DNA of 64,000 bases from Polyangiaceae bacterium (GTDB lineage Bacteria; Myxococcota_A; Polyangia; Polyangiales; Polyangiaceae): contig JABTUA010000001.1 of NCBI GenBank assembly GCA_015075635.1, positions 248,001-312,000 on the forward strand, read 5' to 3'. The notes below the pieces were generated by a model. The model ran no database searches, was not told where the DNA came from, and saw nothing but the letters and a program-made list of their open reading frames with translations. Positions 602 through 8,122 of the stretch are shown piece after piece; the first letter of the stretch is position 1, and each line of letters begins with the position of its first letter. The position numbers and the translations under genes are program-made.

Positions 602-2290
602 TCACTTCGGCCGGACGTAGACCCAGATCACCGGAACGCCGTCGTGCGTCCCGATGTACGCGGGCGCGGTCGTGCCGTAGTCCACCCAGATCTGGTACTC
701 GACGCGCAACATGTGGGGCTCGTGGTGATAGAGCGCCACGCTCGACTGGGCTGGCGACCAAGCGGCGCGCAGGTCGCTGCGCAGCCGCCCGTCCTTGACC
801 ATCTGATCCCAGCTCTGCATCGCCGTGTCGTGGACGAAGACCGCGGCGCCTGGCTCCGCGCGCTGGTTGACGAAGCCCGCGACGGATCCGGTGGTGTAAC
901 CCCAGAAGCTCCGGTTCAAGCCCAGGCTCGCGGCTCCGGGAGCGCCGCCGACCAGCGGCGTGTACGCAGTCAGGCCCCAGGGGTGCGAGCCGAGGGCGAT
1001 GGCAGTGGGAGCCGCCGTCACCGAGACGGCGAGCCCCAGCGTCGCGGCAACGCGGTAGCGCTCCGAGAGCAGGCCGCCGAGCGCGCGGCACGCGAGCACG
1101 AACGCCTGCGCCGCGAACAGGCACAGGAACGGGTACGCCGTGATCCAGTGCTTGGTGCCGCCGAAGATGGGCGTGGTCTTCGACAGCCACGGTGCGTAGC
1201 TGGTCAGGATGCAGAGCAGCCACAAGAGCTCGGTGGAGAACAGCTCGCGCTCCCCCGGCGAGGCGGGCTCGGGCTTGGTCTTGCCGAGCACGCTCGCCAG
1301 CCAGGTCAGGCGCACCGCGTACGCGCGCCGGGCCGCGGCAGCTAGCCCGATGGCGAACAGGAGCAGCGTGACGCCGGGCACCGTGCCCAGCGTCATCACC
1401 CAGGCGTAGCCGAGCGGCATCGGCGGCTTCCAGTAGGTCCGCCCGAGGAACTCCATGTTGTAGTACTCGTGCCCGGTGTGGAAGGCGACGTAGGCCGCGA
1501 GCCGCCGCCCCGTGTCGTGCCAGATCCAGGGCCACATCAGGTAGAACAACACCGGACCGATGAAGGCCATGCACACCAGCGCGAGCGGCGCGCGCACGCG
1601 TCCGGCGCGGAGCTCCCGCCAGATGCCGTCGCCGCGGGCGATCACGAAGTGCGCGATCAGGGCCGGCGGCAAGAGCCACGAGTTGTGCTTGGTGTTCAAG
1701 AGGAGGCCGTACAGCACGCCGGTGAAGAGCGCCCAGCGCCAGCCGCCACCCGAGATGGAGCGCCAGTAGGCGTAGGTGGTGAAGAGCCACATCGCCGCCA
1801 CCGGCATGTCGAAGCAGTCGAGGTGCGAGTGGTAGAAGACCCGCGGCATCATCGCGAACGAGAGCGCGGCCACCAGCCCGGCCACGCGCCCGCTCACGCG
1901 CCGCCCCCACAGGTAGGTCACCGCCACCGCCAGGCTCGACAGCAACATGCCCGGGAAACGGAAGCTCGTGCCCTCGTCGCGGATCAGCTTCCACTCCGTG
2001 TGCAGGAACTTGTGCGAGAGCGCGAACAGGCTCTTGATCAGCGCGGGGTGCTCGTTGTTGGCGGTCCAGTAGCGGTCGATGGCGGCCCGGTCGAAGGCCG
2101 CCTTCGGGGACTTGAACAGGAGCTCGAACCAGCCCTCGTAGCTCCGCGCCGCCTGGAAGTAGAAGCCCTCGTCCCGGGCGTAGCCCAGGTCCTTGGTCGT
2201 CGCGAGCAAGAGCGCGAGGTAGAGCGCCGCGAGGCAGAGCCCGATCAGCGGATCGAGCGCGGCGCCGAGCAGTCGTCGCGCGCGGCTCAT
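602..2290 (-). CDS. GT39/ArnT-like integral membrane glycosyltransferase
   Basis: This protein of about 562 residues has around ten hydrophobic segments. Its N-terminal pattern is typical of GT-C glycosyltransferases of the PMT/ArnT type: a first membrane helix followed by an acidic DEGFYF motif and, about 45 residues later, EHPALIK. Such enzymes transfer a sugar from a polyprenyl-phosphate donor to a periplasmic acceptor; the Asp of the first loop is the usual catalytic residue. The chosen ATG overlaps the stop of the upstream gene by ATGA, which marks translational coupling with the membrane-anchored protein at 2287-3198. Longer reading frames upstream are shadows of that gene. Donor and acceptor are unknown. 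Confidence 0.8.
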   Translation of the reverse strand: MSRARRLLGAALDPLIGLCLAALYLALLLATTKDLGYARDEGFYFQAARSYEGWFELLFKSPKAAFDRAAIDRYWTANNEHPALIKSLFALSHKFLHTEWKLIRDEGTSFRFPGMLLSSLAVAVTYLWGRRVSGRVAGLVAALSFAMMPRVFYHSHLDCFDMPVAAMWLFTTYAYWRSISGGGWRWALFTGVLYGLLLNTKHNSWLLPPALIAHFVIARGDGIWRELRAGRVRAPLALVCMAFIGPVLFYLMWPWIWHDTGRRLAAYVAFHTGHEYYNMEFLGRTYWKPPMPLGYAWVMTLGTVPGVTLLLFAIGLAAAARRAYAVRLTWLASVLGKTKPEPASPGERELFSTELLWLLCILTSYAPWLSKTTPIFGGTKHWITAYPFLCLFAAQAFVLACRALGGLLSERYRVAATLGLAVSVTAAPTAIALGSHPWGLTAYTPLVGGAPGAASLGLNRSFWGYTTGSVAGFVNQRAEPGAAVFVHDTAMQSWDQMVKDGRLRSDLRAAWSPAQSSVALYHHEPHMLRVEYQIWVDYGTTAPAYIGTHDGVPVIWVYVRPK

Positions 2291-3198
2291 CGCGAGTCCG
2301 CCTGGAAGCAGAAGTGGCGATCCTTGGCGCTCGAGCTGCGCACCTCGATCTCGACCTCCGCGCTCTGGCCTTGTCGCCCCGTGTCGAACGAGAACGGCGC
2401 GAAGCCCGCCTCGTCCCTGTGTACGTAGGTGCCGATGCTCTGGCCGCCGACCCGCACCTCGAGCTCGATGGGAGGCGCGCCCACGCTGTCGCGGAAGACC
2501 AGCCAGGGCATGCCGCCGTAGCCACGGATCTGCTTGCCCAGCGGCACGTTCGCGAAGCGCAAGCGCAAGGGGCCGCCCTGGGGCGGGTGCGCCCAGATGC
2601 AGCGCCGTGGCCGGTACTCCATGTGGTCGTCGATCACGGTCACGCCCGCGAAGAACCACTCGCCCCCGGGGCACATGAAGCGCTCGGCCGGGAAGGTCGG
2701 GTTGCCCCCCAGACCACCGGTCGAGACCGGCGCGCGGGGATTCCAGGCGCAGGGAGCTTGGCCCTCGAACACGCTCAGGTGCTCCGGCTTCACGTGGTCG
2801 GCGAAATCGAACACGACCCGCTCCGGCGCCGGGTTCTCCAGCGTGCGCAACGTGAAGCGCCCGCGCTTCGACTCCGCGACCGTGCGCCAGCCTCGGAGCT
2901 CCGGCGCACGCTCACCCAGCGACGAAATCTCGATGGCGCGCGCGTAGCCGCTCTCGTCGGGCCGCGCCACGTCACGGAGCGGCATCAACGCGTCGCCCAG
3001 CGCCTGGCGTGCCAAGGGGTCCGCCCAGCGCGGCGCGACCACCACGAGCTCTTCGGCCTGCCGCAGCGCCGCCACCGGCTCGCGCAGGCCGGCCCACTCC
3101 TCGACGCGCGGCGCGCGATTCGCGAAGAAGTAGTGCAGGGAAAGCTCCACGAGACCGGCGAGCGGCACGGCGAGCCAGAGCAGGCGCTTGTCGAGCAT
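2287..3198 (-). CDS. membrane-anchored protein of unknown function, coupled to the GT39-like gene
   Basis: A 303-residue protein with an N-terminal hydrophobic anchor (about residues 6-26) and a long exported portion. No catalytic motif was recognised. The middle has conserved-looking Cys residues and a CPGGEWFFAG stretch; the C-terminal half (VELEVRVGG, FSFDTGRQGQSAEVEIEV) reads like a beta-sandwich. It shares a 4-bp ATGA overlap with the downstream glycosyltransferase gene, so the two are probably made together and may act together, for example as a companion of the lipid-linked sugar transferase. Upstream it is divergent from the polytopic gene at 3254. Confidence 0.6.
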   Translation of the reverse strand: MLDKRLLWLAVPLAGLVELSLHYFFANRAPRVEEWAGLREPVAALRQAEELVVVAPRWADPLARQALGDALMPLRDVARPDESGYARAIEISSLGERAPELRGWRTVAESKRGRFTLRTLENPAPERVVFDFADHVKPEHLSVFEGQAPCAWNPRAPVSTGGLGGNPTFPAERFMCPGGEWFFAGVTVIDDHMEYRPRRCIWAHPPQGGPLRLRFANVPLGKQIRGYGGMPWLVFRDSVGAPPIELEVRVGGQSIGTYVHRDEAGFAPFSFDTGRQGQSAEVEIEVRSSSAKDRHFCFQADSR

Positions 3199-3253: not shown

Positions 3254-4798
3254 GTGTCAGGCCGGATCCGCGCGCTCACCTTGGCGGTCGCGGCGCTCGC
3301 GGCTCTGACCGTGCTGGTCTATCCGTTCACGGTCGCGCGCTACCCCGCGATCACCGACCTGCCCTTCCACGCCGCGCAGGTCTCGATCTTCCGTCACTAC
3401 GCCGACCCGGCCTTCCACTTCGCGGAGCAGTTCGAGCTGCACCCGTTCGACGTCCCGTACCTGACCATGTACGCGCTGGGCGCGCTGGCGGCGTTCGCGG
3501 TGCCCATCCACGTGGCCGCGAAGGTCATGGCGGTGGGCATGTTGGCTCTCCTGCCCCTGGGGCTCGGCCTGCTCTTCCACGGCATGAAGAAGAGCCCGCT
3601 CTGGGGCGTCTTGGGCCTCGCCTTCGCGTACACCGATCTGACGCACTGGGGCTTCCTGAGCTTCGTCGGCGCGCTGGGCCTGTACGCCGCGAGCATCGGG
3701 CTCACGCTGCGACTGCTCGACGCTCCCAGCCCGCGAAAGCAGCTCGCCCTCGGGGCGGTGCTGCTGCTGCTGTTCTTCACCCACGTCTACCGCTTCCCGT
3801 ACGCGCTGCTCGCGATCGGGCTGACCGCGCTGGTGATGTACCCGGCGACGCGCCAGGTGAAGCCGCTCTTCTTGCCCCTGGGCCCGCCGGTGGCGCTCTT
3901 CGCCGTCTGGTTTCTCTCGCGCCCGCCGACGCTGTCGGGCGGCGTCCCGCTCGCGTTCGACGCCTCGCGCGCCGCGCGTCTCGGAGACTTCGTGTTCGGC
4001 AACTACGTGGGCGCGAGCGGCGCCGAGGAGAAGAAGCTCGCCGGAGCGATGCTCGCGACCGTCGCCGCGGCGCTGGTGCTCGCCCTCGTCTATCGCGATC
4101 GCGAGCGCGCCGCGGACGCGCGCGAGCGCCGATTCCGCCAGGGCGTGACGCTCCTGCCGCTCTTGCTCGCCGGGGGGCACTTGCTCGCCTATTTCACGCT
4201 GCCTGCCCGCGTCGGCGAGTGGTGGTACGTGTTTCCGCGGGAGCTGCCCGCCGCGTGGTTCATCCTGCTCGGCGCGCTGCCCGATCTGCCCCAGCGCCGC
4301 TCCGTCCAGCTGGGCATCGTCGCGCTGATCGGCCTCGGCTCCGGCCGCATGGCGCTGTTCGTGGCCGAGCGCTGGCGCGCGTTCGAGCGCGAGACGGCCG
4401 ACTTCCGCGAGATCGCCGCGAACCTGCCGCCGGCACCGAAGCTCGCCTATCTGGTCATCGACCACGGCTTGCCCGGCAAGGCCGGCGAGAAGCGTCACTC
4501 CGCGCTGGTGCACCTGCCGGCGTGGATCCAAGCCGAGCGGGGCGGCTGGCTGTCGTTCCACTTCGCCGGCTGGCGCATCTTCCCGATCTGGTACCGCACG
4601 GGCGCGGCGGACACGCCGCCGCAGGTGCCCCGCGACTGGGAGTGGAACCCGAGCTGGTTCCGCGTGAACGAGCAGGGGCGCTTCTTCGACTGGTTCCTGG
4701 TGCGCCTCGCGGACGACCCGGCGCCGATCTTCGCGTCCGACCCTGGCGTGCAGCTGGTCGAGCGGCGCGGCAGCTGGTGGCTGTACCGCCGCCCATGA
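3254..4798 (+). CDS. polytopic membrane protein, GT-C glycosyltransferase-like
   Basis: About 514 residues with around ten transmembrane segments in the first 370, followed by a soluble C-terminal domain of about 140 residues rich in Trp and Tyr. The GTG at 3254 is chosen because it directly precedes the first hydrophobic segment; an in-frame ATG at 3188 would overlap the start of the divergent gene at 3198 and adds an unstructured leader. The first periplasmic loop contains TDLPFH before further helices, resembling the acidic loop of GT-C glycosyltransferases, but no family-defining motif was seen. Its position opposite a GT39-like gene supports a role in envelope glycan assembly. Function is inferred only. 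Confidence 0.6.
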   Translation: MSGRIRALTLAVAALAALTVLVYPFTVARYPAITDLPFHAAQVSIFRHYADPAFHFAEQFELHPFDVPYLTMYALGALAAFAVPIHVAAKVMAVGMLALLPLGLGLLFHGMKKSPLWGVLGLAFAYTDLTHWGFLSFVGALGLYAASIGLTLRLLDAPSPRKQLALGAVLLLLFFTHVYRFPYALLAIGLTALVMYPATRQVKPLFLPLGPPVALFAVWFLSRPPTLSGGVPLAFDASRAARLGDFVFGNYVGASGAEEKKLAGAMLATVAAALVLALVYRDRERAADARERRFRQGVTLLPLLLAGGHLLAYFTLPARVGEWWYVFPRELPAAWFILLGALPDLPQRRSVQLGIVALIGLGSGRMALFVAERWRAFERETADFREIAANLPPAPKLAYLVIDHGLPGKAGEKRHSALVHLPAWIQAERGGWLSFHFAGWRIFPIWYRTGAADTPPQVPRDWEWNPSWFRVNEQGRFFDWFLVRLADDPAPIFASDPGVQLVERRGSWWLYRRP

Positions 4799-4955
4799 CT
4801 CGGGTTTCGCCTGTTCGCGCCCCGCGTTTGCGGCCCCGCCCTGCCTTCTTCGGGGTTCTCGTCGAGAGCCGCTCAGGAAGCGCTCGGCGGAAACTCCCAC
4901 CTGACGACGGAGTCCGCCGGCCTCGCCGGTATTCTCCTGGGTCTCGGCCCCGGTG

Positions 4956-5004
4956 GCAGATCGCGATCTGCTCATGTCACGACGGCGAAAGTCGAGCATG
5001 AGCA
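4956..5004. promoter_or_regulatory. nested inverted repeats, candidate enhancer-binding site
   Basis: Two symmetric elements lie side by side. gcagatcgcgatctgc at 4956-4971 is a perfect 16-bp palindrome. tgctcatg (4969-4976) and catgagca (4997-5004) are perfect 8-bp arms 20 bp apart, with a smaller cgac/gtcg hairpin between them. They sit about 100-150 bp upstream of the sigma-54-like element at 5096. That is the usual distance for the upstream site of a bacterial enhancer-binding protein. Binding is inference. Confidence 0.35.
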
Positions 5005-5095
5005 AATTTTCGACGACGCACTGCGGCGTTTTCATTTCTGCAATCCATCCCCTGCTCCGGCCCATCCAACTGCTCGAAATGAGGAAAACGCGCCG

Positions 5096-5111
5096 TGGCA
5101 CAGCCCATGCA
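5096..5111 (+). promoter_or_regulatory. sigma-54 (RpoN)-type -24/-12 promoter
   Basis: tggcac-agccc-atgca matches the sigma-54 consensus TGGCAC-N5-TTGCA at ten of eleven fixed positions. The invariant GG (5097-5098) and GC (5109-5110) are separated by exactly 10 bp. The predicted transcription start is about 5120-5124, just before a run of hairpins ending in a T-tract terminator. There is no reading frame of note between this element and the terminator. Confidence 0.5.
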
Positions 5112-5119
5112 CTACGGGA

Positions 5120-5280
5120 GAGCGGCGGCAGTGACGGACTGCCAGACAGACCTCTCTCCCGCCAGTCACTACGCACGGTGACGTTGACGTACCCCCCCCT
5201 CCGTTAGCGTCACCGTGCTTTTCTCACCCACGGCAGTGTCGGAACGTCCCCCCCCGTCCGGCCTGCCGTGGTTTTTTTTG
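5120..5280 (+). ncRNA. candidate small RNA or leader with C8-loop hairpins
   Basis: Downstream of the sigma-54-like element the DNA encodes consecutive hairpins: ggcagt/actgcc (5127-5132 and 5138-5143), an 11-bp perfect stem gcacggtgacg/cgtcaccgtgc (5173-5183 and 5208-5218), and a 9-bp perfect stem ccacggcag/ctgccgtgg (5228-5236 and 5263-5271) followed by eight T. The last two loops each expose a run of eight C (5192-5199 and 5248-5255) flanked by acgt on the left. C-rich loops in bacterial small RNAs often pair with G-rich ribosome-binding sites. The end lies 28 bp before the heptose-isomerase gene, so a leader/attenuator role is an alternative to a free small RNA. The Pxr small RNA of Myxococcus, also described as sigma-54 dependent, is an analogy; homology is not shown. 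Confidence 0.45.
5228..5279 (+). terminator. Rho-independent terminator
   Basis: Nine perfect base pairs (5228-5236 with 5263-5271), an inner cgga/tccg helix (5240-5243 with 5257-5260), then eight consecutive T (5272-5279). It is the clearest intrinsic terminator noticed in the window and stands 28 bp before the start codon at 5308. Confidence 0.7.
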
Positions 5281-5307
5281 TGCGGTTGGCTCTAGAGTCC
5301 CGCGCGC

Positions 5308-5904
5308 ATGACCCACGCGCGTAAGTTCTTCGACGAGGCCGTCCAGATCCTGAACCGCCTGGACGCCGATGCCGTAGAGCGGCTGGCGTCGCTGCTCGCC
5401 GACCTCGGCAAGCGCGGCGGCCGGCTGTTCATCCTCGGCGTGGGCGGCAGCGCTGGAAACGCCTCGCACGCGGTCAACGACTTCCGGAAAATCTGCGGCA
5501 TCGAGGCCTACGCGCCAACCGACAACGTGTCCGAGCTGACGGCGCGCGTGAACGACGAGGGCTGGGAGACGACCTTCGAGCGCTGGCTGGAGGTCAGCCG
5601 CCTCGGCAAGAACGACATGGTGCTGGTGTTCTCGGTGGGCGGCGGCAACCTGGAGAAGAACGTGAGCCCGAACCTGGTGCGGGCGCTCGGGCTCGCCAAG
5701 CGAGTCGGCGCCAGCATCGGCGGCGTCGTGGGGCGCGACGGCGGCTACACCGCCCAGGTCGCGGACGCCTGCGTGATCGTCCCGACCGTGAACCCGGAGG
5801 CCATCACGCCGCACACGGAGGCGTTCCAAGGCGTGGTCTGGCATCTGCTCGTGTCGCACCCCGCGCTGCAGAAGTCGGCGACGAAGTGGGAGAGCACTCG
5901 ATGA
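5308..5904 (+). CDS. SIS-domain phosphosugar isomerase, GmhA-like
   Basis: This 198-residue protein is a single SIS domain. The glycine-rich phosphate loop FILGVGGSAGNASHAVNDF (about residues 41-59) and the second SIS signature VFSVGGGNLEKN are both present. The best reading is a sedoheptulose-7-phosphate isomerase (first step of ADP/GDP-heptose synthesis) or a close relative. It is translationally coupled to the following epimerase by an ATGA overlap. A nucleotidyltransferase and a GHMP kinase that would complete the GDP-heptose route lie 3.5 kb downstream. Substrate is inferred from family and neighbours. Confidence 0.75.
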   Translation: MTHARKFFDEAVQILNRLDADAVERLASLLADLGKRGGRLFILGVGGSAGNASHAVNDFRKICGIEAYAPTDNVSELTARVNDEGWETTFERWLEVSRLGKNDMVLVFSVGGGNLEKNVSPNLVRALGLAKRVGASIGGVVGRDGGYTAQVADACVIVPTVNPEAITPHTEAFQGVVWHLLVSHPALQKSATKWESTR

Positions 5905-6839
5905 AGTCGCTGGTCGTCGGCGGCGCGGGCTTCATCGGCAGCCATCTGGCCGATCGCCTGGTCAGCCGCGGACCGGTCACGCTGTTCGACAACCTGAGCG
6001 TGGGCAAGCGCGAGTTCGTCGCGACGCACCTCGACTCCGGCGCCGCCAAGCTCGTGGTCGGTGAGCTGCTCGACCTCGGCCAGGTGTGCGAGGTGGTGAA
6101 GGGCCACGACGTGGTGTTCCACCTGGCGGCGAACCCCGAGGCGCGCTGGGGCCTCGACAACCCGCGGCTGGATCTGGAGCAGGGCACCATCGCCACCTGG
6201 AACGTGCTCGAGGCCATGCGCCGGGGCGGCGTGAAGACCATCGTCTTCTCCTCGTCCGGCACCGTGTACGGCGACACCGCTGCCGTCTGCGCCGAGGGCG
6301 ATCTCGGGCACCTGCCCATCTCGCTCTACGGCGCCAGCAAGCTCGCCGGCGAGTCGTTGATCAGCGCCTACGCCGAGTGCTTCGGCCTGCGCGGCTTGAT
6401 CTACCGCTTCGGCAACGTGGTGGGCCCGCGCGGCACGCACGGCGCTGCGCTCGACTTCTTCAAGAAGCTCCAGAAGACCCCCGACGAGCTGGAGGTGCTC
6501 GGCGACGGCGCGCAGGCCAAGCCCTACGTCTTCGTCACCGACTGCGTGGACGGCATCTTGTTCGGCCTCGATCATTCGAAGGGCCCCCTCGACGTGTTCA
6601 ACATCGCGCCACCGGACTTCACCAGCGTGCGCCGCATCGCCGAGCTGTGCGTGGCGGCTTCCCCCTACCCCAGCGCGCGCATCCGCTACACCGGCGGCGA
6701 GCGCGGCTGGCCCGGCGACGTCCCGCAGTCGCGCATCGCGCCGAACCGCCTGGCCGAGCTCGGATGGCGGGTCTCGCGCACCAGCGACGAGGCGGTACGC
6801 GAGGCGGTCAGCGCGCTGGCACGAGAGGTCTTCGGGTGA
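5901..6839 (+). CDS. NAD(P)-dependent nucleotide-sugar epimerase/dehydratase
   Basis: A 312-residue extended short-chain dehydrogenase with the N-terminal GGAGFIGSH nucleotide-binding motif at residues 7-15, the FSSSGTVYG catalytic Ser/Thr region and the YGASK catalytic Tyr-Lys pair. The ATG at 5901 overlaps the previous stop (ATGA) and has gggag about 8 bp upstream, so the in-frame ATG at 5886 is rejected. Such enzymes convert NDP-sugars, for example UDP-glucose to UDP-galactose or NDP-heptose forms. Coupling to a GmhA-like isomerase favours a heptose-related or surface-glycan sugar. The exact product is not readable from sequence. Confidence 0.8.
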   Translation: MKSLVVGGAGFIGSHLADRLVSRGPVTLFDNLSVGKREFVATHLDSGAAKLVVGELLDLGQVCEVVKGHDVVFHLAANPEARWGLDNPRLDLEQGTIATWNVLEAMRRGGVKTIVFSSSGTVYGDTAAVCAEGDLGHLPISLYGASKLAGESLISAYAECFGLRGLIYRFGNVVGPRGTHGAALDFFKKLQKTPDELEVLGDGAQAKPYVFVTDCVDGILFGLDHSKGPLDVFNIAPPDFTSVRRIAELCVAASPYPSARIRYTGGERGWPGDVPQSRIAPNRLAELGWRVSRTSDEAVREAVSALAREVFG

Positions 6840-6843
6840 GGGC

Positions 6844-7500
6844 TCACAGCTTCCCGACGAGCAAGCGCTTCACGGGCCCGGGCGGCTCGCCCTGCTTGCA
6901 GCCGTCCAGGAGGAAGCGGATCCCGGGCAGGTTCTTGGCGCGGGCGTCGCAGGTCGGCTTCGAGTCGAGCCACTCGGGGTTTCGCACGATCTCGATCTCG
7001 CCATAGACGTCGCGCAGATCCTGGTAGGTCGAACCGACGCCGATGCCTTCGGCGGTGGTGATGCCGGGGCTCTCGATCACGATGGCGTCCACCAGCGCGC
7101 CGGCGCGCGCCGCGGCGAGCGCCTTCGGTGCGAGCACGGGCAGGAGCTCCTCGATGGGCCCTGGATCGACCTCGTCCATCGGTCCCTTGTCCAGGGTCAC
7201 CCACACCGGCGGGTTGCCGATCAGGAAGCCCTCCATGGGCTGCGCGTCGGCGACCCAGCGCGCCTCGTAACGCGCCCTGTCGTCGAGGTAGCGTGCCGGG
7301 ATCGGCGCTCCCACCACGATGTCGTCCACGGCGCCGCCACGCACGCGCGCGGGCGCGGGCCTGGCGGCGGGCGGCTTCGCGGGATCGACGCTGCCGCTCG
7401 GCGGCACCGGCGTCACTTCGGGGCTGGGAGGCCCGCTCGGCTTCGGCGCGGCGCAGCTCACCCCACAGGCGAGGCACAACAGAATTCGCAGCGTTCCCAT
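6844..7500 (-). CDS. secreted or lipid-anchored protein of unknown function
   Basis: A 218-residue protein starting at the ATG at 7500. The N-terminus is a short signal peptide with two Cys residues (about positions 8 and 12); neither sits in a perfect lipobox. A Pro-rich linker of about 40 residues follows, then a compact domain. The domain includes IESPGITTAEGIGVGSTYQDLRDVYGEIEI and a pair of C-terminal cysteines. The 'GIGVGSTYxDLRxxYG' pattern occurs in small uncharacterised periplasmic domains of myxobacteria, by recollection only. It ends 4 bp after the convergent epimerase gene. Confidence 0.6.
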   Translation of the reverse strand: MGTLRILLCLACGVSCAAPKPSGPPSPEVTPVPPSGSVDPAKPPAARPAPARVRGGAVDDIVVGAPIPARYLDDRARYEARWVADAQPMEGFLIGNPPVWVTLDKGPMDEVDPGPIEELLPVLAPKALAAARAGALVDAIVIESPGITTAEGIGVGSTYQDLRDVYGEIEIVRNPEWLDSKPTCDARAKNLPGIRFLLDGCKQGEPPGPVKRLLVGKL

Positions 7501-7564
7501 GGGCTCGCGGTTAGGCGAAGCGACAGCACGGCGCAACCCTGGCCCTTCCGCTAAGCTTCGAGGC

Positions 7565-8122
7565 ATGGGTGTTCCACGGCGCCTCGCCGGCGCGGCGGCC
7601 TTCGCGCTCTGGGCGAGGGCGTGCAGCGTCGAGCCCATCGACATCGAGGGCAAGGAGTGCCCCTGCGCCCCGAGCTACACCTGCGACCCGCGGACCAACC
7701 GCTGCATCATCGGCAACGCCACCGGGGGCAGCGCGGGCGCGGCGAACGGTGGCGCGGCGAGCACCGGCAGCGGAGGAGCGGCGGGCAGCGCGGGCAGCGC
7801 GCCGGGCGGCGGAGGCTCCAGCGGCTCCGGCGGCGACGCGAGCGTCGATGGGACTTCGCCCGACGGCAGCGCGAGCGGCGGTACCAGCTCCGGCGGCGGC
7901 GGTGCCGGCGGAACGGTCGTGAGCGGCGGAGGCAGCTCGGGAACTGGTGGCGCCACCGGCAACAAGGGCAGCTGCGTCGGTTACTGCGATCTGAACGACG
8001 AGCCCGTGCCGGGCAGCAAGCCGCCGTGCTACTGCGACGCCGCCTGCGAGGGCTTCGGCGACTGCTGCTCGGACAAGATCCAGATCTGCGGCAAGGCACC
8101 GGCAGACGCGGGCGCGGGTTAG
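7565..8122 (+). CDS. lipoprotein with a C-terminal somatomedin-B-like cysteine domain
   Basis: A 185-residue protein. The signal peptide ends in the lipobox ARAC (lipid Cys about 20). A short Cys-rich knob (CPCAPSYTCDPRTNRC, residues 32-47) and a Gly/Ser/Ala linker of about 85 residues follow. The last 50 residues hold eight cysteines at 137, 141, 155, 157, 161, 167, 168 and 175: C-x3-C-x13-C-x-C-x3-C-x5-CC-x6-C. That is the spacing class of the somatomedin-B domain of vitronectin and related animal proteins, including the CxCDxxC and CC signatures. The role is probably extracellular binding. It overlaps the convergent gene by 4 bp at the stop. Confidence 0.7.
   Translation: MGVPRRLAGAAAFALWARACSVEPIDIEGKECPCAPSYTCDPRTNRCIIGNATGGSAGAANGGAASTGSGGAAGSAGSAPGGGGSSGSGGDASVDGTSPDGSASGGTSSGGGGAGGTVVSGGGSSGTGGATGNKGSCVGYCDLNDEPVPGSKPPCYCDAACEGFGDCCSDKIQICGKAPADAGAG

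Follow-up and report, generated by a model that had tools for sequence, protein, structure and literature searches.

The window analysed here is a stretch of 64,000 nucleotides from the 9.47 Mb genome of a Polyangiaceae bacterium. In its first part, an open reading frame ends at position 4798 and a sugar isomerase-like gene starts at 5308; the control sites, the promoter and the hairpins found in this gap all lie on the plus strand. The features of the locus and of its surroundings are:

605-2674, minus strand: PMT_2 gene, a marker of the orthologous locus in other genera
2290-3198, minus strand: uncharacterised gene of 310 aa, which marks the orthologous locus together with the PMT_2 gene
5008-5021, plus strand: putative distal activator site TTTCGACGACGCAC, degenerate, which fits the family consensus TTTCnnnnnCGCA (28 promoters)
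5030-5043, plus strand: putative proximal activator site TTTCATTTCTGCAA, of the form TTKCA-N4-TGMAA
5067-5080, plus strand: conserved upstream element CAACTGCTCGAAAT, from the family alignment (family form TAACnnCTCGAAA)
5096-5111, plus strand: predicted sigma-54 -24/-12 promoter TGGCAC-AGCCC-ATGCA, one mismatch to the consensus, aligned in all family members
5122-5279, plus strand: predicted small RNA of about 160 nt (fold z -8.5; unit conserved in the congeners)
5124-5163, plus strand: SL1, weak hairpin containing the pyrimidine-rich stretch ACCUCUCUCCC, from the fold, not significant alone
5173-5218, plus strand: SL2, hairpin of 17 bp (loop UACCCCCCCCUC) with a U-run after it (z -8.9; covariation)
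5228-5279, plus strand: SL3, terminator hairpin with a C8 loop and a U8 tract (z -5.5; identical in the congeners)
5308-5904, plus strand: SIS-domain (sugar isomerase-like) gene, a neighbour only (Pfam SIS_2)

Further along, the open reading frame at 7319-8122 (plus strand) gives a weak match to Somatomedin_B (24.7 bits, just above the cut-off), which is unusual in a bacterium and may be a chance match in a cysteine-rich tail.

Control region and promoter

The motif TTKCA-N4-TGMAA occurs perfectly only once in the window, at the proximal site, and in none of 100 shuffles. The distal site, about 21-22 bp away, is kept in the alignment of both congeners, in which the conserved upstream signal spans 5008-5080. 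The element at 5067-5080 resembles the sequence AAGTGCTTGAGAAA found upstream of Myxococcus pxr. From this sequence conservation, the sites at 5008-5021 and 5030-5043 are the likely binding sites of the activator. A preliminary description of this DNA had instead placed symmetric activator sites at 4956-5004. The inverted repeat that it had noticed is real (4970-5003), but the congener alignment shows no conservation there and this candidate was rejected.

The -24/-12 element reported in the same description is present at 5096-5111 and matches TGGCAC-N5-TTGCA at 10 of 11 positions, as TGGCAC-N5-ATGCA. Matches of this quality are expected by chance 0.59 times per window, so the promoter word by itself is weak evidence. 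The host genome contains rpoN. Among 47 promoters of the family described below, a perfect TTKCA-N4-TGMAA lies upstream of 24 (0.05 expected), and 38 have such a site with at most one mismatch (0.7 expected). The 47 are not all independent, since the set holds related copies and four pxr loci. In most of the 47, the centre of the activator site lies 57-60 bp upstream of TGGCAC. Transcription is predicted to start near 5122.

Fold of the predicted RNA

The 160 nt from 5121 to 5280 fold at -77.9 kcal/mol, a value that no shuffle equals. A transcript of the opposite strand was considered and rejected on its fold (z -3.6, against -8.5 for the plus strand). The three hairpins had all been described as strong, which holds for SL2 and SL3; SL1 by itself does not stand out from chance (z -1.7; 12 of 200 shuffles fold as well). 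Many relatives carry a C-loop hairpin at the SL1 position. The loops of the window RNA read CUCUCUCCC, CCCCCCCCUCC and CCCCCCCC, those of SL2 and SL3 being C8 loops. The U-run after SL2 is a possible inner terminator or processing site. The eight T at 5272-5279 follow SL3, and there is no conserved protein between the promoter and the terminator; both points agree with the first description.

Conservation of the unit and of its stems

From the promoter to the T-run, the unit is 90-91% identical in the two congeners, while the flanking DNA diverges; within the genus, one T-A pair has changed to C-G in the congener alignment. In eight genomes the RNA gene lies near a PMT_2-type gene, and in six of them the same 310-aa gene is also present. 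The copies next to the PMT_2 gene are taken as orthologous because these neighbours are shared. In the window, a further open reading frame lies between the RNA gene and these neighbours. A second set of loci (G077, G029, G100, G099, G105 and G011) has different neighbours in common, including an M50 peptidase and a PTR2 transporter.

Covariation was examined for the outer ten pairs of SL2 in six genera of the PMT_2 locus, with the arms excised and the loop replaced by CCCCCC. All 60 cells are paired; the register was fixed on the closing pairs, a choice that favours pairing. Six of the ten pairs have changed on both sides. The covariation is 0.61, against 0.04-0.21 when the arms are slid. The compensatory changes that had been anticipated in relatives are found in this stem.

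The description had left open whether the RNA was free or a leader, the 5' part of the mRNA of the sugar-isomerase operon with a regulated terminator. The start codon of the SIS gene, 28 nt past the U-tract, and the presence of this gene after the RNA in both congeners would suit a leader. However, the SIS gene adjoins the RNA only in this genus, both congeners included, so that the RNA did not classify as a cis-acting leader. Outside the genus the unit, which ends in a terminator of its own, adjoins other genes, stands in tandem arrays or is alone, and an unlinked copy exists in the host genome itself (at C1:2479783); moreover, no alternative anti-terminator pairing was seen. Since the same unit occurs without the SIS gene in relatives, the idea of an attenuator for this operon was rejected, and the leader hypothesis is very unlikely. 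The gene very likely stands alone.

The locus is very probably a genuine small RNA gene. Of the original observation, the promoter, the hairpins and the U8 terminator stand and the symmetric activator sites do not. The conservation, the covariation, the order-wide family and the conserved activator site all lend strong support to the proposal of a sigma-54 locus for an undescribed small RNA.

A family of predicted C-loop RNAs in the Polyangiales

Two models were used for the family search, R1 for the hairpin and R2 for the segment from the promoter to SL2 (R2 gives 124 bits on the window RNA, by construction). With R1 and then R2, the family was found in 50 of the 184 Polyangiales genomes, covering 29 of 84 genera and six families, and many of these genomes have more than one copy, some in tandem; weak matches of these models in a Sorangium genome (G122) were set aside. 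Of 379 genomes drawn evenly across the phylum, G232 was the only one outside the order that matched (E 1.3e-12). This genome carries the perfect activator site TTTCATTCATGAAA together with a promoter and two C-loop hairpins.

The number of long hairpins per RNA ranges from one to six (six in G009 and G029, for example); the stems change and the loops stay C-rich. Among 145 loop hairpins, some loci being counted twice, 125 have a C-run of C6-C8, and the runs vary from C5 to C10 in the family. The divergent copy of G022, which belongs to another genus, keeps the same promoter layout and has four hairpins, every loop of which reads UCCCCCCUCC. In G033, nine small RNA genes lie in tandem (L044, G033:C1:9574000-9577800), and every one of them has activator sites, a promoter and a terminator of its own. 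They are spaced by about 385 bp where the copies are near-identical and by slightly more elsewhere. Tandem sets also occur in G066 and G067.

The near-identical tandem copies of these three genomes could evoke a mobile or repetitive palindrome of the REP type, in which promoter-like words occur by chance. Yet the promoter, activator sites and hairpins keep a fixed spacing across many genera, and synteny of the orthologous locus extends over eight genomes. The copy number is also low and no transposase-like context was seen, so that such an origin is scarcely credible.

A third model, R3, is based on the sequences of 28 Polyangiales control regions and contains neither a hairpin nor any pxr sequence. 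It was searched against nine genomes. All 22 full-length matches examined (E < 1e-3; a few G033 matches outside the tandem array were left out of this hairpin test) have a C-loop hairpin within 150 nt downstream, and the matches absent from the training set include G001:C26, G002:C56, two in G048 and one in G232. R3 also detected a second C-loop sRNA-like gene in the host (G000:C1:2479783-2479843; L194, L199), which has a perfect activator site, a TGGCCC-N5-TTGCT promoter and a single C9-loop hairpin with U5. Both congeners have relatives of this gene (L175, L182). The window RNA is thus very probably a member of a previously unlisted, sigma-54-controlled family of RNAs with C-rich loops in Sorangium-type myxobacteria.

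On the minus strand of L191 (G000:C2 near 1454600), an activator site TTGCAAACCTGAAA lies about 100 nt before a C9-loop hairpin; there is no clear -24 element, and this is a possible third member in the host.

Relation to Pxr

Pxr, the best-studied small RNA of myxobacteria, is a gatekeeper of multicellular development: it holds back fruiting-body formation in Myxococcus while nutrients last. It exists in long and short forms (Pxr-L and Pxr-S) and its function needs the first stem-loop, which has a C-rich loop. To our knowledge, its targets and binding rules are largely undefined. The origin of Pxr has been placed within the suborder Cystobacterineae (PMC5684412, PMC11928866).

A scan of named genomes with a published Northern probe (PMC5568312) gave 13 pxr loci, including those of M. 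xanthus, Pyxidicoccus and Hyalangium; the probe pattern had no match in 284 genomes of the phylum. Upstream of M. xanthus pxr one reads TTTCACTTATGAAA, TTGCAGTCATGAAA, AAGTGCTTGAGAAA and TGGCACGGCGACTGCT, and the first hairpin loop is UUCCCCCCCACCCC. A typical Myxococcus-type pxr locus is also present in a record titled Comamonas sp. KCTC 72670 (L127, BNCN01000002.1), which is probably mislabelled or derived from a mixed culture.

Of the 13 named Myxococcaceae loci, 9 have a pxr control region that R3 recognises (E 1e-5 to 4e-3). The Rfam model of Pxr (RF01812, membership threshold 80 bits) does not match positions 3800-6600 of the window at E<=5, so the window RNA was not filed as Pxr; none of six Polyangiales relatives matched this model either, for which M. 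xanthus scores 129.2 bits.

When the host is compared with the activator PxrR, as encoded at the M. xanthus locus, a single relative stands out (51-54% identity). Among the twelve best host relatives, only this protein keeps SPTTLWRKMTRL (SSTTLWRKMKRL in PxrR) and, with it, the recognition helix TTLWRKM-RL. Its gene (C1:3250392-3251726) lies 3 Mb from the window RNA gene, with no kinase gene next to it. This protein is the candidate for binding the TTKCA-N4-TGMAA sites.

Both Pxr and the Polyangiales RNA have a sigma-54 promoter (TGGCAC-N5-CTGCT for Pxr), paired TTKCA-N4-TGMAA sites about 19-24 bp apart, an element like AAGTGCTTGAGAAA, a hairpin near the start with a C-rich loop (C7-rich in Pxr, and seen in many Polyangiales members, although SL1 of the window is weak), a hairpin terminator and a known or probable NtrC-type activator; tandem paralogues occur in some species in the case of Pxr too (PMC5568312). 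The Polyangiales RNA, for its part, does not match the Rfam model, its stems are different, its C-loop hairpins are longer and more numerous, and its activator sites lie about 24 bp nearer the promoter. In Myxococcus the order is pxrK-pxrR-pxr, whereas the window RNA, from a different taxonomic order, has neither pxrR nor pxrK directly upstream, its neighbours being other genes.

A rival reading is convergence, in which only the regulon of a sigma-54 activator would be common and C-rich loops would have arisen twice. The RNA part indeed lacks a sequence match to Rfam Pxr, and R2 reaches only three pxr loci, marginally (E ~0.01). Convergence is nonetheless doubtful, for the activator sites, the second upstream element, the promoter, the C-loop hairpin near the start and the activator protein are all common to both, and tandem paralogues were made in both lineages. 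The recognition of the pxr control region by R3 and the PxrR-like activator of the host make this look like a Pxr-like small RNA beyond the suborder of Pxr. On these sequence grounds, there is a good chance that the control of the window RNA is of the Pxr type, and this RNA probably shares the regulator of Pxr.

It is about an even bet that the Pxr system did not arise recently in the Cystobacterineae but is one branch of an old myxobacterial regulon, in which a PxrR-type activator drives the sigma-54 promoters of C-loop hairpin RNAs. In the Polyangiales this regulon would have multiplied both in hairpins, with as many as six per RNA, and in genes, with nine at one locus. In a large, fast-diverging family with a Pxr-type control region in the Sorangium/Chondromyces branch, conservation can show the parts that matter, such as the activator sites and the C-loops. 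The family also points to the DNA site of the probable activator and makes the age of the Pxr system testable.

Proposed mode of action

In the favoured reading, to which we give a probability of about 0.7, the locus is a gene of its own that encodes a trans-acting small RNA of about 160 nt. This RNA would be Pxr-like in its working, as a member of an order-wide Polyangiales family, and would act in three steps. First, as the conserved sites and the orthologous protein suggest, an NtrC-type activator of the PxrR kind on the two sites, together with sigma-54 polymerase, would start transcription near 5122. Second, the predicted transcript would fold into one weak and two long hairpins, a structure backed by the covariation, and terminate at the U8 tract. 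A shorter form may arise at the U-run after SL2; forms ending after SL3 or SL2 would, speculatively, parallel Pxr-L and Pxr-S. Third, the exposed C-rich loops would reduce the translation of several mRNAs by pairing with their G-rich Shine-Dalgarno regions, the repeated loops providing redundancy or dosage. This last step is proposed from the conservation of the loops and from the analogy with the alpha-r14 family of rhizobia, and the odds are slightly against it. The physiological output might, at a guess, resemble that of Pxr and consist in holding back development or in responding to nutrients.

The alpha-r14 RNAs (NfeR1; SmelA075 and SmelA099 of Rhizobiales) are the best precedent for the pairing step. 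They have three or four hairpins with constant anti-Shine-Dalgarno loops, CCUCCUCCC, and highly variable stems (PMC3927594, PMC10746234), an architecture of several hairpins, constant loops and variable stems which the window family shares. The alpha-r14 loops were shown to silence the translation of ntrB, and the RNA is Hfq-independent (PMC10746234, PMC3927594). The loops of the window family are of the form C6-C10(U)CC instead, and in the window RNA the hairpins do not all carry an identical CCUCCUCCC loop. The alpha-r14 promoter, regulated by LsrB and NtrC, has a different layout, and the lineage is unrelated. Myxobacteria have been reported to lack Hfq (PMC5684412); pairing of the kind proposed, if true, would suggest that Hfq-less bacteria use many-hairpin RNAs of the anti-Shine-Dalgarno type. 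Over its whole length the window RNA also weakly resembles ar7 (RF02342), but its 23.4 bits fall well short of the gathering score of 60.

Perfect 10-base complements of the SL2 loop (GGAGGGGGGG) occur nine times over the two strands of the host genome, compared to eight for the reversed pattern, and two of the nine are the antisense of the RNA genes themselves. In the three genomes searched, no complement besides those of the RNA genes is conserved; one lone candidate lies before an ATG (L218). The target step thus draws no support from target sites, these complements being neither commoner than the reversed control nor conserved. Given that the host shows no enrichment of perfect long complements, any pairing would depend on short G-rich Shine-Dalgarno seeds; alternatively, the loops would bind a protein.

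In the latter case the C-loop hairpins would be a sponge for an RNA-binding protein, in the manner of CsrB or CrcZ. Hairpins repeated one to six times per RNA with constant loops and variable stems, like the lack of enrichment of complementary sites in the host, would agree with this, and CrcZ is itself a sigma-54-driven sponge RNA. CsrB/RsmZ and CrcZ likewise repeat short motifs in one RNA, but these are GGA or A-rich, whereas the window family is C-rich and has no known partner protein. Furthermore, its loops vary in length from C5 to C10, and the analogous alpha-r14 RNA pairs with mRNA. A sponge is hence rather improbable, and pairing with mRNA is the retained proposal for the third step.

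Partly similar promoters before protein genes

Partial R3 matches before protein genes (L176-L178, L183) were not counted as members, as they comprise only part of the control region and have no C-loop hairpins. At L176 (G000:C1:2688401) and L178 (G022), in two genera, a sigma-54 promoter precedes a gene that by eye is sigma-factor-like; this promoter shares the GAAA element next to the promoter but has an upstream palindrome of the TGTTAC/GTAAC type. At L177 (G002) and L183 (G001), a sigma-54 promoter with TTTCA...TGAAA-like sites stands before the start of a gene that by eye is PilZ-domain-like, a possible protein-coding member of the regulon.
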